64,000 nt of DNA from contig NZ_AWEZ01000043.1 in NCBI RefSeq assembly GCF_000468755.1, positions 62,001 to 126,000 of the forward strand, written 5' to 3'. A program made the position numbers and the translations under genes. This DNA is from Olsenella profusa F0195. Its GTDB lineage: Bacteria; Actinomycetota; Coriobacteriia; Coriobacteriales; Atopobiaceae. Below are positions 8,879 through 48,660 of this stretch, in pieces; positions within the stretch are counted from its first letter, which is position 1, and the number at the start of each line of letters is the position of its first letter. A model generated the notes under the pieces. The model ran no database searches. It saw only the letters and a program-made list of their open reading frames with translations, and was not told the DNA's origin.

Positions 8879-10369
8879 TTGAGCGACCAGAACACTCCCG
8901 TGCGCGTGCGCTTCGCACCCTCCCCCACCGGCAAGCTGCACGTAGGCGGCGCACGGACGGCCATATACAACTGGGCCTTCGCCCGTGCCAACCACGGTAC
9001 CTTCATCCTGCGTATCGACGATACCGACCCCACCCGCTCCACCGAGGAGAACACGCAGGTGATCCTGCGCGCCATGCGCTGGCTGGGGCTGGACTGGGAC
9101 GAGGGGCCCGCGGTAGGAGGCGACTATGGCCCCTACTGGCAGACGCAGCGCCTCGCCCTCTATCACGAGGCAGCCGAGCGTCTGGTGGCAAAAGACAGGG
9201 CCTATTACTGCTTCTGCACGCCCGAGAGGCTCGCCGCGGACCGGAAGACGGCCGAGGAGCGCCATGATCCCTTCCAGGGGTACCAGCGCACCTGCCGCTC
9301 CATCGATCCCGTCGAGGCACGGCGTCGCGTGGATGCCGGTGAGCCGCACACCATCCGCATCAAGGTGCCCGAGGATCGTGGTGACGTGGCCATCCATGAC
9401 GCCGTGCACGGCACCGTGACCTTCAATGCCCGTGAGCTGGACGACTTCATCATCGTGCGCACCGACGGCACGCCCACCTACAACTTCACGACCGTGGTCG
9501 ATGACACCCTGATGAGGATCACCCACGTCATCCGCGGCGATGACCACCTCTCCAACACGCCGCGCCAGGTGATGGTCTATGAGGCGCTCGGAGCCCCCAC
9601 GCCCGCGTTCGCACACATCTCCATGATCCTGGGGCCTGATGGCAAGAAGCTCTCCAAGCGCCATGGGGCCACCTCCGTGGAGGAGTACCGCGACCGCGGC
9701 TATGATGCCGACGCGCTGGTGAACTACCTGGCCCTTCTGGGATGGGCGCCCGACGGCGAGACCACCATCGTGCCGCGCGACATGCTCGCCCGCGAGTTCT
9801 CCCTGGAGCATGTGTCCAAGAACCCCGCCACCTTCGACTTCAAGAAGCTCGACTGGATCCAGCAGCAGTACGTGCAGGCCATGAGCGACGAGGAATTCGT
9901 GTTCCAGCTGCTCATGCCCGAGCTCGTGGGGGCCGGCCTGGAGCGCGAGGCGGATCCGGCGCATCCCAAGGCCTGGTACCTGCTGCTCGCCAGCATCCTC
10001 AAGCCCCGCACCACCCTCGCGCCCGACGTGGTGGAGAAGTCCCGCTTCCTCTACGAGGGCGAGGACGTGACGTTCGACGAGAAGTCCGTGAGCAGGAACC
10101 TCTCCAGGGACGGAGCGCACGCCGCCCTCGAGGCCGCGCGTGAGGCGCTCCTTGACGTTGCGGCGGACGGCTGGCACGCCGCCGCCATCGACGCCGCCCT
10201 GGAGCCGCTGCCCGAGCGCCTGGGCACCACCAAGCGTAAGTTCTACGGGGCCGTGCGCGTCGCCGTCTGCGGCAACCAGGTGTCGCCACCCCTTGGCGAG
10301 TCGCTGGAGCTTTTGGGCCGCGGCCTTGCGCTCGCGCGCCTGGAGAAGGCGCTGCCGCTCGCACGCTAG
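8879..10369 (+). CDS. gltX: Glutamyl-tRNA synthetase
   Basis: Charges tRNA-Glu with glutamate. A 496-aa class I synthetase with the HIGH-type motif PSPTGKLHVGG at residues 13-23 and KMSKS-type KKLSKRHGA near residue 257, then a helical anticodon-binding C-terminus. No glnS is seen here, and two tRNA-Glu genes plus a tRNA-Gln gene lie 1.8 kb downstream. A non-discriminating enzyme that also charges tRNA-Gln (corrected by GatCAB) is possible but cannot be shown from this window. The start is a TTG preceded by a weak GGCGAGAGG; no better-placed ATG exists. A TATACT -10 lies at 8839-8844. Confidence 0.97.
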   Translation: MSDQNTPVRVRFAPSPTGKLHVGGARTAIYNWAFARANHGTFILRIDDTDPTRSTEENTQVILRAMRWLGLDWDEGPAVGGDYGPYWQTQRLALYHEAAERLVAKDRAYYCFCTPERLAADRKTAEERHDPFQGYQRTCRSIDPVEARRRVDAGEPHTIRIKVPEDRGDVAIHDAVHGTVTFNARELDDFIIVRTDGTPTYNFTTVVDDTLMRITHVIRGDDHLSNTPRQVMVYEALGAPTPAFAHISMILGPDGKKLSKRHGATSVEEYRDRGYDADALVNYLALLGWAPDGETTIVPRDMLAREFSLEHVSKNPATFDFKKLDWIQQQYVQAMSDEEFVFQLLMPELVGAGLEREADPAHPKAWYLLLASILKPRTTLAPDVVEKSRFLYEGEDVTFDEKSVSRNLSRDGAHAALEAAREALLDVAADGWHAAAIDAALEPLPERLGTTKRKFYGAVRVAVCGNQVSPPLGESLELLGRGLALARLEKALPLAR

Positions 10370-10449: not shown

Positions 10450-10618
10450 GAGTCGTATGCAGTCTCTCGCCCCCATCGCCTGAGTCGTTCGCAATGCTGA
10501 TGGCTCTCAGGATGTTAAAGGCCAGGTAGCCGTAGTGTGGTCACATCATTATCTGCAGATACCGAGTGATAGTCTGCGAACGACTCCCAAACGGGTGGGG
10601 TACTTTTGCGAACGACTC
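10450..10618. repeat. Facing array of 12-bp motif GAGTCGTWYGCA, locus 1 (2+2 copies)
   Basis: Four copies of a 12-bp motif. Two are on the plus strand (10450-10461, 10482-10493) and two on the minus strand (10575-10586, 10607-10618). Each same-strand pair starts exactly 32 bp apart, with unrelated 20-bp spacers, and the two pairs face each other across 81 bp. The whole block is symmetric about 10534. It fills the space between the convergent 3' ends of gltX and the flippase-like gene; the last copy ends 8 bp from the latter's stop. No U-tract terminator is visible in this gap. The role is unknown. Confidence 0.9.
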
Positions 10619-10625
10619 GATGAGG

Positions 10626-11948
10626 CTAGGGACGGTGTCGGGAGATGCGCTTGCGCACGGCGGCCCCGCTCAGTGTGACGCCTCCGGAGGCAGAGCCGCC
10701 CGAGGGCCTACCGGGCCTACCCCTGCCACGACGACGGGCGCGCAGACGCATGCGCAGCTTGCGCACGCGATGGTAGATACTCTCCCCCCCAGTGGAACGC
10801 AGGCCCAGGATGGGGGCGGCCAGAAGCGTGGGGCCGAAGAACGTGACGATGCGCCATACGAGGAAGCCCGCGGATGCCGCCTCCCCGAACAGGCCACCAA
10901 AGAACATGAGGAAGCCGCCCTCGGCACCACCCGTGCCACCGGGCAGCGGCACGGCGGACGCCACCATCTGCACCATGGAGCCTGCCGCCAGGCAGTCCAG
11001 GAAGTCCGCCTCAACGTCAAACGCACGCAGCACGAACCAGGGGATCATGTAGAGGCACGCCAGCTGCAGCATGGTCACCACAAGGGTCAGCCCCATGTTG
11101 GGAAGGTCGCGCGCGGCGTGGCGGAAGGTCTCGGAGAACTCCCGCACCTGCACGTTGACCATGTCATTCCAGTGCTCGGGGTCCTTGAGCCACCTATGAC
11201 GGGTGGCGACGCGCAGCAGGGCGTTGCCCACGCGCATGACGAAGCGGGGACACAGGCATATCACGAAGAGGCCCGCCAGCTCGACAAAGTGCACGCCAAA
11301 CACCACGAGGTTGAGGATGATGATGTCCCCGAACGTCTCGAAGAAGTACTCGAGCTTGGCGACGAGCATGATGGCGGCAAAGAGCACCACGCCAAACTGG
11401 AACATGATGAAGCGCGTGAATTCCGTGGCACCGGCCTCGCCCACATCGAGCCCCGTGCGCGTGAGGCGATAGATCTGTGACGGCACGGCGCCGGCCATCA
11501 TGGGCGTCAGGTTGCCAAAGAACACGCCCGAGCTCTCGACGCTCATGAGGTCGCGCACGCCCACCGGCGAATCGTGGTCGAGGTAGACGGCGATCACATA
11601 GGCGAGCACGCCGAAGATGAAGTAGAGCAGGTAGCACCCGCATGCGGCGACGACCCACGGCAGGGCAACCGATGAGAGCGCGTCCAAGAAGGTGGCCATC
11701 TGGCCGGAGAAGATGAGGTAGACGATGTAGATGCCCACGACGACCGCGAGGAAGAGCGCCCCCTTGCGCGCCTTGGCGTCACGCTCGCGATCGTCAGAGA
11801 CCCCCTCGGGAATGTTCTCGGGGGCGACATGCGGTGCCGCGACCTTGACGGCGACCTTGGGATGCGCCGCCTTCATCTGGGGCCTTGCCGTGGGGTTCTC
11901 TGAGACGGCAGCCTTGACGTCCTGTGCTTTGGGCGTTTCCGTGGACAT
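10626..11948 (-). CDS. Flippase-like integral membrane protein (LPG synthase TM / UPF0104 family)
   Basis: A 440-aa polytopic protein with a hydrophilic, Ala/Pro/Lys-rich N-terminus of about 70 residues, then roughly eight membrane helices (for example ALFLAVVVGIYIVYLIF and WVVAACGCYLLYFIFGVLAYV) and a very basic Arg-rich tail. The motif PLPGGTGGAEGGF near the seventh helix is typical of the lysylphosphatidylglycerol synthetase/glycosyltransferase-associated flippase-like family (Pfam LPG_synthase_TM). No soluble aminoacyl-transfer domain is attached, so lysyl-PG synthesis should not be assumed. A lipid-carrier or polyisoprenoid flipping role is a family-level guess. The ATG at 11948 is chosen over an upstream in-frame start. 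Confidence 0.85.
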   Translation of the reverse strand: MSTETPKAQDVKAAVSENPTARPQMKAAHPKVAVKVAAPHVAPENIPEGVSDDRERDAKARKGALFLAVVVGIYIVYLIFSGQMATFLDALSSVALPWVVAACGCYLLYFIFGVLAYVIAVYLDHDSPVGVRDLMSVESSGVFFGNLTPMMAGAVPSQIYRLTRTGLDVGEAGATEFTRFIMFQFGVVLFAAIMLVAKLEYFFETFGDIIILNLVVFGVHFVELAGLFVICLCPRFVMRVGNALLRVATRHRWLKDPEHWNDMVNVQVREFSETFRHAARDLPNMGLTLVVTMLQLACLYMIPWFVLRAFDVEADFLDCLAAGSMVQMVASAVPLPGGTGGAEGGFLMFFGGLFGEAASAGFLVWRIVTFFGPTLLAAPILGLRSTGGESIYHRVRKLRMRLRARRRGRGRPGRPSGGSASGGVTLSGAAVRKRISRHRP

Positions 11949-12095
11949 GCGTCCCAGCGTCCCCAATCTGCCGGCAGAGCGGCGCAAGAGTTGCAATGAA
12001 TTGACAGTAGAAGTGTACCCTCTCGCGGTGCCTGGGGCGACCGGGCGGCAAGAGTCACGCAGGAGTTATGGACAAAAGATATTCACCCACAACGC

Positions 12096-12157: not shown

Positions 12158-12231
12158 TGAGCCGTCGTCTAATGGTAGGACAGCGGATTCTGGTTCCGTC
12201 AGTGGGAGTTCGACTCTCTCCGGCTCAGCCA
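12158..12231 (+). tRNA. tRNA-Gln (anticodon CTG)
   Basis: A cloverleaf with acceptor arms TGAGCCG and CGGCTCA, D-arm GTCTAATGGTAGGAC, anticodon loop TTCTGGT within the stem CGGA/TCCG, and T-arm with GTTCGACTC. The discriminator is G and the CCA tail is encoded. The U1-A72 first pair is typical of tRNA-Gln. It leads a three-gene cluster from one promoter. Confidence 0.93.
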
Positions 12232-12255
12232 TGTGTTCCTGTGACAGGCAGATAT

Positions 12256-12332
12256 GGCCCGTTCGTCTAGCGGTTTAGGACGCCGCCCTCTCAAGGCGGA
12301 GATCACCAGTTCGAATCTGGTACGGGCTACCA
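12256..12332 (+). tRNA. tRNA-Glu (anticodon CTC), copy 1
   Basis: Acceptor GGCCCGT pairs with ACGGGCT, including a G1-U72 wobble. The anticodon stem CCGCC/GGCGG encloses loop CTCTCAA, and the T-arm is ACCAGTTCGAATCTGGT. The discriminator is A, followed by encoded CCA. It reads the GAG codon, the preferred Glu codon in this GC-rich genome. Confidence 0.93.
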
Positions 12333-12342
12333 TCTGTTGCTC

Positions 12343-12419
12343 GGCCCGTTCGTCTAGCGGTTTAGGACGCCGCCCTCTCAAGGCGGAGATCACCAGTTCG
12401 AATCTGGTACGGGCTACCA
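12343..12419 (+). tRNA. tRNA-Glu (anticodon CTC), copy 2
   Basis: Identical over its whole 77 bases to the preceding tRNA-Glu and separated from it by 10 bp, so it is a recent or homogenised tandem duplication. It is followed by a strong terminator. Confidence 0.93.
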
Positions 12420-12998: not shown

Positions 12999-13181
12999 GC
13001 ACGCTTAGGCCCCAAGTGCGCGATGCTCTGCACGGCGCCGTCCGGATGGGTGACTCTGGATCGCCTCGTATGGCACCATAGCGTGCCCGCGGAGGGGATA
13101 AGACGCCTCTTTTACGGGAGGAACACGGGTCGAAGGACGGGAGACCGTCCGACCCAGCACGCACTTGGGGCCTAAGCGTGC
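12999..13181. repeat. 183-bp element bounded by perfect 22-bp inverted repeats
   Basis: The 22-bp sequence starting GCACGCTTAGGCCCCAAG at 12999-13020 recurs exactly, inverted, at 13160-13181, enclosing 139 bp with no gene. The next bases outside the match differ and I see no convincing target-site duplication. It may be a MITE-like remnant, or a DNA or RNA hairpin next to the decayed Mrr gene. Between 12859 and 12998 I see only the probable upstream region of the Mrr remnant. Confidence 0.8.
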
Positions 13182-20348: not shown

Positions 20349-20538
20349 GAGTCGTACGCATTCCTGGTGGGAGTCGTATGCAAAATATCACGGGCTTTCT
20401 CACCGAAAAGTGAGTATGCACCTCGATGAACTGCGCATTTGCAGATGCAGTTCTCAGAAAAATGCGTACGACTCAATCTAGCGTCGTCGGAAAGTGCGAA
20501 CGACTCGGTCGGATGCCGCCGAGAAATGCGAACGACTC
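20349..20538. repeat. Facing array of 12-bp motif GAGTCGTWYGCA, locus 2 (2+3 copies)
   Basis: Five copies. Plus-strand copies start at 20349 and 20371 (22 bp apart). Minus-strand copies are at 20463-20474, 20495-20506 and 20527-20538, each 32 bp from the next with unrelated 20-bp spacers. The inner copies face across 80 bp, almost the same as at locus 1 (81 bp). The last copy overlaps the stop codon of the CCA-adding enzyme by two bases. The central 80 bp contains small inverted repeats (CTCAC-GTGAG, CTGC-GCAG). Confidence 0.9.
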
Positions 20539-21937
20539 ACCTGCGAAGCGTATGGGCATAGGCGAGAAGGGCACCTCGGTCGTTGGGAACCTCATCGCCT
20601 ATGACGGCCTCGAGCAGGCCCGCCAGCACGTCGCCCACGGCGGGACCCGGCGCCAGGCCCAGCTCGCCTATGACGTCCGCACCGCCCACGGCCAGGTCGC
20701 GTACGCGATAGCAACCGCCCGACGCAAGCTCCCGACGCAGTGCCCTGGTGACGCGGTCAAGCTCCACGGCATAGCCGGCGGCAGCGGGGGCCTTGGACAC
20801 GGCGTCCGCCCGCTTGAGGTCGATGACCTCGAAGGCCAGCTCCGCCGCACGACCGGGACAGGCACGGTCGAGCAGCATCAGGAGCCTCCTCAGCGAGGAG
20901 CGCCTTGCCGTCGTCACGTGGTCGTGGCGGCGGACGAGCGCCACCACGGGATCGACGACCTCGCTGGAGAGCGCCATCCGCCTGAGCACCCCACGCGCCA
21001 CCTGGGCCCCGACCCTGGGATGCCCATAGAAGTGGCCTCTGCCCTTGGCATCCAGCGTGAACGTCTCGGGCTTGGCGATGTCATGCAGGAGCGCCGCCCA
21101 CCTCAGCTCTCGTGACGCCAGCCCACAGGTGAACTCCTCCACCGCAGCACACACGTGGGCCGTATGGGTGAGCACGTCAAAGGCATGGTAGGGGCTGCGC
21201 TGGTCGAAGCCCACACAGGACTCCAGCTCCGGCAGCGCGGCCACGAGCACCGCCGTCTCATGCTCGAGCGCCCAGCCCGCCCGGCCCGAGCTCACGATGC
21301 CGTCCAGCTCCTGTCCGATGCGCTCCCGTGCCACATGGGCGAGCTCTGGCGCGGCCACCTCAAGCGCCCGTTGGGTGGCGGGCTCCACCACAAAGCCCAG
21401 GCGGCAGGCAAAGCGCACGGCACGCAGCACGCGCAGGGCGTCCTCGCCAAAGCGGAGCGCCGGCTCCCCCACCGCACGGATGACGCCACGGGCGAGGTCA
21501 GCCCTCCCACCAAAGGGGTCAAGCAGACCACGCTCGGGATGGAACGCCATCGCATTGATGGTAAAGTCGCGTCGCGCAAGGTCGAGCCGCACGTCGTCCA
21601 CGAAGCTCACGCTGTCGGGATGGCGATGGTCGCTGTAGGCGCCCTCCTGGCGGAAGGTGGTCACCTCGATGGGCATGCCATCGGCCACCACGGTCACCGT
21701 GCCGTGGGCACAGCCCGTCTCGTGCACGACGAGGCCTGCCGATCGCGCCACGCGAGCCGTCTCCTGCCAGGGCGCGCTCGCCGTGACGTCCACATCGTGT
21801 GCGGTGTCGCCCCGCAGCGCGTCACGCACCCAACCGCCTACGACCCACGCCTCGAAGCCCGCCGCCTCAAGGACGCAGAGCACCCGGCGGGCGGCGGGCG
21901 GCAGACCGTGGGCGAGCTCGGCGGCGGACGGGGTCAT
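20537..21937 (-). CDS. cca: CCA-adding tRNA nucleotidyltransferase with HD domain
   Basis: Adds or repairs the 3' CCA of tRNAs. 466 aa of the class II nucleotidyltransferase family. The head domain has VGGWVRDALRG followed by DVDVT (metal-binding Asp pair) and ARRDFTINAMAF. RFGEDALRVLRAVRFACRLG is the neck. An HD domain follows (HAFDVLTHTAH, LLHDIAKPETF), usually a phosphohydrolase for tRNA repair. Since the three tRNA genes here encode CCA, a repair role is enough; poly(A) polymerase activity is an alternative for this family. Single gene; its 3' end abuts a motif array instead of a hairpin terminator. Confidence 0.93.
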   Translation of the reverse strand: MTPSAAELAHGLPPAARRVLCVLEAAGFEAWVVGGWVRDALRGDTAHDVDVTASAPWQETARVARSAGLVVHETGCAHGTVTVVADGMPIEVTTFRQEGAYSDHRHPDSVSFVDDVRLDLARRDFTINAMAFHPERGLLDPFGGRADLARGVIRAVGEPALRFGEDALRVLRAVRFACRLGFVVEPATQRALEVAAPELAHVARERIGQELDGIVSSGRAGWALEHETAVLVAALPELESCVGFDQRSPYHAFDVLTHTAHVCAAVEEFTCGLASRELRWAALLHDIAKPETFTLDAKGRGHFYGHPRVGAQVARGVLRRMALSSEVVDPVVALVRRHDHVTTARRSSLRRLLMLLDRACPGRAAELAFEVIDLKRADAVSKAPAAAGYAVELDRVTRALRRELASGGCYRVRDLAVGGADVIGELGLAPGPAVGDVLAGLLEAVIGDEVPNDRGALLAYAHTLRR

Positions 21938-48118: not shown

Positions 48119-48475
48119 GCTGCGAGGTGGGCCAGACGACCGCGGGACGTGTGCGTCACGAGGAAAGTCCGGGCTCCTGAGGGCAGGAAGCTGGCTAACG
48201 GCCAGGCGGGGTGACCCGACGGAAAGCGCCGCAGAAAAGAAGACTCCCGCTGTCCCCTTGGGGATGAGAGAAAAGCTGAAACGGTGGTGCAAGAGACCAC
48301 CAGCGCCTGGGCGACCAGGCGGCTTGGCAAGCCCCTTCCGGAGCAAGCGCAAATAGGAGCGCCATGGTGTGGCCCGCACCGCGCTCGGGTTGCGCGCTCG
48401 AGGCCTGCGGCAACGCAAGGCCCTAGATAGATGGTCGTCCACGACAGAACCCGGCTTACCGGCCCGCCTCGCAGC
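48119..48475 (+). ncRNA. rnpB: RNase P RNA (type A)
   Basis: Catalytic RNA that matures tRNA 5' ends. The universal blocks are present: GAGGAAAGTCCGGGCTC near the 5' end, the P4-forming ACAGAACCCGGCTTACCGGC near the 3' end, and CGCAAATAGGAG in the middle. The ends pair over 15 bases (GCTGCGAGGTGGGCC with GGCCCGCCTCGCAGC, one G-T and the rest standard), setting both boundaries at about 357 nt. A -10 box TACAAT lies at 48109-48114. No U-tract terminator follows directly; a motif array begins 60 bp later. Confidence 0.97.
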
Positions 48476-48534: not shown

Positions 48535-48660
48535 GAGTCGTTCGCAAACATAGGCGTAGAGGCTTGGACACGGCCGTGAAAACCGTCTCGTTCATGCAGG
48601 TACAAGGGTTGTTGCCCACACGACAATGGAAACTATGCCCTCAAATATTGCATACGACTC
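48535..48660. repeat. Facing pair of 12-bp motif GAGTCGTWYGCA, locus 3 (1+1 copies)
   Basis: One plus-strand copy, GAGTCGTTCGCA (48535-48546), faces one minus-strand copy, TGCATACGACTC (48649-48660), across 102 bp. The start-to-start distance is 114 bp, about two helical turns longer than at loci 1 and 2 (93 and 92 bp). It occupies the gap between rnpB and udk, which otherwise contains only a TATACT (48715-48720) that may be the udk -10. Confidence 0.85.

Follow-up and report, generated by a model that had tools for sequence, protein, structure and literature searches.

Among described systems, REPIN–RAYT comes closest. As described in PMC3116915, this system consists of short inverted doublets outside genes, each family being tied to one repeat-adjoined protein gene and families differing by gene. 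A second source (PMC6083498) gives EDxHD as one of six homing endonuclease families, and binding to inverted repeats is reported for AbiEi antitoxins in PMC7319586.

The window, by which we mean the whole 64-kb stretch of DNA analysed here, holds three arrays of a 12-bp motif, GAGTCGTWYGCA. Like REPINs, the arrays of this genome are many inverted doublets outside genes (79 copies, 27 facing arrays), and a candidate cognate gene is adjoined by the same repeats, but that gene comes from a different protein family. Unlike in REPIN–RAYT, no Y1 (HUH) transposase of family PF01797 was found in the source genome (G000) or in a second strain (G060), each side of an array is made of phased direct repeats, opposing arms lack covariation, and the candidate partner is Vsr/DUF559-like. 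The missing Y1 transposase and the missing arm covariation argue against REPIN–RAYT membership: by analogy, the element would resemble a REPIN in its working, yet it differs from that system in transposase and in hairpin pairing. Our main reading, to which we assign a probability of about 0.58, is that the arrays are a REPIN-like dispersed miniature element, probably partnered by a non-RAYT nuclease-like gene (G000:C50) and copied through binding and cutting. In the literature searched, which lay mostly outside subscription journals, no description of a system of arrays and nuclease-like gene was found.

Facing arrays in the window and across the genome

The features of the window on which the argument draws are as follows.

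8879–10369, plus strand: glutamyl-tRNA synthetase-like gene, ending 80 bp ahead of locus 1
10450–10618, unstranded: locus 1 element, with two plus-strand arms (10450–10461, 10482–10493) and two minus-strand arms (10575–10586, 10607–10618), 32 bp apart on each side
10523–10528, plus strand: CAGGTA core of locus 1 (motif position)
10626–11996, minus strand: lysylphosphatidylglycerol-synthase-like gene, its 3′ end 7 bp past locus 1
12999–13181, unstranded: second element family, a 22-bp inverted repeat, GCACGCTTAGGCCCCAAGTGCG, around a long loop
20349–20538, unstranded: locus 2 element, with plus-strand arms at 20349 and 20371 (22 bp apart) and minus-strand arms at 20463, 20495 and 20527 (32 bp apart)
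20537–21937, minus strand: tRNA nucleotidyltransferase-like gene, its 3′ end touching locus 2
48124–48474, plus strand: RNase P RNA gene (rnpB; Rfam RF00010, 279 bits), upstream of locus 3
48535–48660, unstranded: locus 3 element, with one plus-strand arm (48535) and one minus-strand arm (48649), 114 bp start to start
48597–48602, plus strand: CAGGTA core of locus 3 (motif position)

A recount of the window returned the same figures as the original prediction: 11 exact copies of GAGTCGTWYGCA against 0.03 expected, with the variable bases TC six times, AT three times and AC twice. None of 100 dinucleotide shuffles reached 11 copies. The geometry claimed for locus 1 was likewise confirmed from the coordinates, with arm starts 32 bp apart, spacers between arms unlike one another, and the two pairs facing across 81 bp (10494–10574). 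The glutamyl-tRNA synthetase-like and lysylphosphatidylglycerol-synthase-like genes converge on it, as had been claimed, and the reported absence of hairpin terminators there agrees with our finding of no strong hairpin and of a single weak one with 5 pairs, where shuffles give 0.2 on average. The copy at 20527–20538 does overlap the end of the tRNA nucleotidyltransferase-like gene by 2 bp, and locus 3 starts 60 bp downstream of the RNase P RNA gene. At gathering score, the only Rfam matches in the window were to RNase P RNA and to three tRNAs, with none over the arrays, which speaks against a known RNA family. To our knowledge, the consensus sequences of parS, matS and DNA uptake sites do not match the arrays, and these were set aside.

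Across G000, 79 exact copies of GAGTCGTWYGCA were counted and the reversed control pattern gave one match, an outcome that goes against chance-level counts, which the original prediction had named as one possible refutation. Genome-wide, the variable bases are TC in 37 copies, AT in 35 and AC in 7, and never TT. The copies form 29 clusters, among which 27 are arrays with both arms when near matches are counted as arms; excluded from these 27 are a lone in-gene copy, at 15618 of L048, and the contig end L047, whose sequence repeats that of L054 (L047 and L054 map to a single G060 place). In all arrays the plus arms lie to the left of the minus arms and point inwards. Neighbouring arms on the same side are spaced 32 bp apart in 34 of 41 cases and 21–22 bp in 5 of 41, and inner arm starts are 92–94 bp apart in 19 of 27 arrays, the others being at 104 (five), 114 (one), 125 (one) and 46 bp (one). 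Among the 15 uncommon spacings, the deviation of 12 amounts to whole 10.5-bp steps, to within 1.5 bp (p = 5e-5), and the remaining three (46, 79 and 90 bp) involve extra head-to-head copies. Steps of 10.5 bp speak against random spacing. A directional CAGGTA/TACCTG core lies within 17 of the 29 clusters. As an additional feature, five head-to-head arm pairs are offset by 14 bp (5116–5141 of L035 and four others), about half a helical turn off the main phase.

The variable bases of opposing arms were alike in 12 of 27 inner pairs (11.5 expected) and in 4 of 17 outer pairs (5.9 expected), demonstrating no covariation. What is kept is thus not pairing between the two sides, and recognition of duplex DNA fits better. 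The earlier proposal of a protein on one face of the DNA fits both the 10.5-bp steps and this lack of covariation.

Position relative to gene ends was also assessed, with gene context taken from a rough gene caller, some neighbours being weak calls and rnpB being entered by hand at locus 3. Every array is adjoined by a called gene 3′ end. The 26 placed arrays lie in 10 converging, 16 tandem and 0 diverging gaps (one more is at a contig end), whereas background gaps of 80–1000 bp at the same loci comprise 16 converging, 57 tandem and 23 diverging (n = 96); the lack of diverging gaps (0/26 vs 23/96, p = 0.002) and the share of converging gaps (10/26 vs 16/96, p = 0.02) both differ from this background. 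The insulator, factor-dependent terminator and nucleoid or segregation roles suggested earlier gained no support beyond this position.

Arrays share with MITEs of DDE transposons a short, non-coding, intergenic form with inverted ends. Unlike MITEs, they lack a target-site duplication: none was found at the 27 arrays, whose own flanks share 3.96 bp on average against 3.85 bp when swapped, with 6 bp or more in 1 of 27 arrays (swapped, 4.4%). This absence argues against a DDE transposon. It may also speak against identity with a known IS or MITE, another refutation raised by the original prediction.

A nuclease-like gene family and the repeats beside it

Outside the window, G000:C50 is the sole gene between two GAGTCGT arrays 1.3 kb apart. 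Its 358-aa protein belongs to no named family, and its C-terminal end resembles DUF559/MTES_1575 below the Pfam cut-offs (26.8 vs 38.2 bits and 16.1 vs 20.6). Pfam matches among 14 homologues are also below cut-off, any one match occurring in just 1 to 3 of the 14. A profile of these 14 sequences matched PDB 3r3p, named 'Mobile intron protein', at E = 2.5e-4 and 3hrl at 0.04, with Vsr far weaker (0.83–0.86); with a wider 42-sequence alignment the 3r3p match fell to E = 0.0073. D264 and H282 are invariant in all 42 aligned homologues. Homologue alignment A1 was built after omitting same-species doubles (L184, L189, L196, L199) and pieces from G003 (L191, L202). Searches of the protein family in PADLOC and NCBIfam gave nothing firm.

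We take 3r3p to be a member of the EDxHD family. Any likeness to Vsr-like/EDxHD homing endonucleases would lie in weak sequence similarity over the nuclease end; unlike those enzymes, the proteins here have a long N-terminal part, no intron or intein was seen, and each genome holds several divergent paralogues, many beside their own repeats. Homologues number 2–5 per genome within the genus and 362 in total within the family, where 53 of 61 genomes carry 1 to 16 each. Single-protein queries found no relatives in viral contigs or phages, and a plasmid search gave one Collinsella aerofaciens record at 24% identity, a search with that protein returning the same record alone. This homologue, together with our own reading of the sequence, hints at Coriobacteriia as the lineage of the source genome and, as a guess, at Atopobiaceae. 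The search for the Y1 transposase domain PF01797 gave 0 matches in G000 and G060, with 5 of 14 control genomes positive, including E. coli. Separately, genes for Y1 transposases (L275–L278) are present in two relatives, G002 and G003.

Many homologue genes are adjoined by facing repeats whose sequence varies from gene to gene. A both-flanks test, on which we chiefly rely, required the same facing 10-mer within 600 bp on each side of the gene. Of 80 homologue rows, which stand for 79 distinct loci (L203 and L198 being one), 19 scored positive, as did 1 of the 434 control genes (p = 9e-16). The rows are mostly the best-scoring of the 362 matches, not a random draw; the controls are ordinary genes from five genomes, and foreign-looking genes might attract repeats generally. 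The rows include the seed (L206/L183), first examined for its place between arrays. The strict test was failed by 61 of the 80 rows; under looser definitions, a repeat on any side was found in 69/80 rows vs 190/434 controls, and any repeat on both sides in 28/80 vs 31/434. Loop lengths of the paired flanking copies are equal within 1 bp in 16 of 19 cases, even where the loops do not align, and the copies are direct in nine cases, inverted in five and unassigned in five. A 12-bp inverted-repeat test was positive at 32/43 homologue loci vs 69/240 control windows and 6/30 rnpB flanks. A looser array detector (16/40 homologue loci vs 37/160 control windows) was dropped because it was too noisy in GC-rich coding DNA.

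Dispersal of the arms was assessed by counting them in stretches of their own genome and of four other genomes, the G000 stretches having been chosen around GAGTCGTWYGCA arrays. Four arm sets are clearly dispersed, and in their own genome only: L183 (87 vs 0–1 elsewhere), L190 (18 vs 0–1), L201 (15 vs 0–2) and L269 (5 vs 0–1). L185, L188 and L193 are weak cases. Arms of L192, L195, L197, L199, L268, L270 and L271 showed no dispersal within the genome stretches examined; for L192 and L197, no further copy turned up in 200 kb of the same genome. Arms sought at L187 and L267 were not found.

An arm sequence is common to homologues at high identity only, possibly as one locus in two species; most homologue pairs at 40–65% identity have no arm sequence in common. 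The core is not enriched beside homologue genes (3/80 vs 13/356; 6/80 vs 13/356; 4/80 vs 9/356). DNA 3′ of rnpB was compared with the arms of homologue genes within each genome (37 pairs); apart from one shared 17-mer in G006 there was no signal, the outcome being like that with other genomes.

Strains, relatives and probable copying

All 29 clusters recur in G060, the second strain, in most cases at about 99% identity, L047 over the array alone and locus 2 as two pieces around an IS. No array was present in one strain and absent from the other (G000 vs G060). Arms have been gained or lost between strains as whole units, of 32 bp at L051 and of 21 bp at L195/L196. Changes between G000 and G060 number 6/1188 in arms, 25/2997 in array interiors and 112/15882 in flanks, with no significant difference in favour of higher arm conservation. 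Within the G060 copy of locus 2, a 1.2-kb insertion of IS1595 type (about 10014–11229 of L055) carries an out-of-frame transposase; this insert was considered as an autonomous element and rejected, being IS1595-type with an 8-bp duplication read by eye.

The original prediction had proposed a count in relatives. The motif stands at all 29 places in the second strain; the 59 other relatives hold 0–4 exact GAGTCGTWYGCA copies each, without arrays among the places listed, and the three of them that are species of the same genus hold 0–2. A search for the paired motif in GTDB contigs, a set from which the source genome was possibly left out, found two unrelated contigs.

Arrays built on other motifs occur in the relatives. 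Facing phased arrays lie 3′ of rnpB at L085, L087 and L111, and possibly at L100, L101 and L112, as judged by eye over 30 rnpB loci. Word counts revealed others in G002, G075 and G080 and nothing clear in G001, and G003 has one with 21-bp steps (L167). A core common to several of these arrays, CGTTTGCGCAGGT, is found in 78 of 121 family genomes (45 times in G002, 14 times in G075) and is absent from G000 and G060, the reversed control giving at most 3 per genome; some of its places are in genes or without arms, so not all are elements. Three G075 copies at different places are 93–96% alike over 103 bp, an agreement between separate places that implies copying. These near-identical copies point to probable dispersal by copying, whereas the G000 copies, whose array interiors are 39% alike against 29% when shuffled, have drifted. 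The GAGTCGTWYGCA arrays look like one species' version of a family-wide repeat element, in which members of a so far undescribed family of nuclease-like proteins appear to have private repeats.

One cassette of homologue gene and arrays (L279 8170–10335 / L280) is only 72–84% alike between G000 and G060, measured over windows of 300 bp. The collinear DNA on either side is mostly 93–100% alike, with 89–95% on the left, 94–100% on the right and 85–88% at the joints, and there is no alignment outside 7142–15403 of L279. This pattern of divergence suggests a possible exchange of gene and arrays between strains.

The mechanism we propose is as follows. Oligomers of the cognate protein would bind the 12-bp arms along a single face of the DNA duplex and, once bound, would hold the element in a fixed geometry with a fixed loop. 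The protein's nuclease end may then nick or cut within the loop or close to it, and repair would copy the element into new places, where copies just 3′ of genes would survive. Arms would drift jointly with their protein, which would give each gene and species its own sequence. More tentatively, at somewhat under even odds, the genes and arrays may constitute a separate class of selfish element: a large Vsr-like family, often with several members per genome, many of which would recognise their own phased facing arms in duplex DNA, copy that element across the genome and co-diverge with it, with no HUH or DDE transposase.

If the pairing is true, it represents a second, unrelated route to REPIN-like dispersed repeats in bacteria, and co-evolution of a DNA-binding protein with its site becomes directly testable. 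Arm sequences differ from gene to gene, so many protein–site pairs could be read directly from genomes; a true selfish-element reading would make them a natural set of many recognition pairs. The linked proteins are unnamed in Pfam, NCBIfam and PADLOC despite their presence in 53 of 61 family genomes. As a caution, a motif that is well spaced and specific to one genome may be the trademark of an element instead of a housekeeping site.

Alternative explanations and further observations

An unlikely alternative is that the arrays serve, at the ends of genes, as functional sites for a host protein peculiar to this lineage, whether as roadblock terminator, as insulator or in the nucleoid, the nuclease-like gene being incidental. 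It would account for the called 3′ end beside each array and for the gap orientations (0/26 diverging, 10/26 converging), for the array after rnpB and for the other-motif arrays seen by eye at that same place in 3 or more of 30 relatives, and for arms that remain exact though interiors have drifted. The spot after genes, however, is the best survival place for any inserted element too; same-arm repeats flank the gene's homologues across many species, the G075 copies point to copying, and three congeneric species hold next to none of the motif. We regard as quite unlikely the proposal that the arrays are landing sites, beside which homing-type nuclease genes insert next to repeats of other origin. 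The mobile-intron name of the best solved relative, 3r3p, is consistent with it, as is the one cassette far more diverged between strains than its surroundings, but the gene lies between whole arrays, none being split in the cases read, and the repeats vary by gene, those of L192 and L197 being absent elsewhere in 200 kb of their own genome.

We give little credence to the idea that the proteins are regulators or toxin–antitoxin or defence parts of AbiEi type, with the repeats as operators. Inverted-repeat binding by AbiEi and two PADLOC AbiEi models, each weakly matching one of 14 members (E = 7e-4 and 6e-3), lend it something; this similarity is very weak and, unlike AbiEi antitoxins, the proteins have a nuclease-like end. 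Copies are dispersed after unrelated genes (rnpB, a tRNA synthetase gene), though the next gene's start is also near in the 16 tandem gaps, and in 19 rows the gene has repeats to either side. Hardly any weight falls on an RNA or single-strand hairpin element (terminator or REP-type hairpin). None of 200 shuffles folded as well as the locus 1 strand (z = −3.6), a result expected of any inverted arms, but opposing arms do not covary, the helical steps suit duplex DNA, and no Rfam family covers the arrays. Of the original prediction, the one-face DNA binder is supported and the insulator, terminator and nucleoid or segregation roles are not; dispersal by copying in a relative and the association with the nuclease-like gene family were missed because they required other genomes.

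Very large composite arrays in G002 (L133–L142) have arms of AATGCGCTTTTCCG type and string together several cores, mostly at steps of 31 and 41–42 bp. No homologue gene with AATGCGCTTTTCCG-type arms was seen among those read.

The second element family in the window (12999–13181) has GGCCCCAAGTGCG in common with the repeats that adjoin L188, another homologue gene in G000. A gapped pattern for this family, with the gap set too short, matched one place, in G060 only. Three tRNA genes lie in a row at 12158–12416 of the window, upstream of the second-family repeat.
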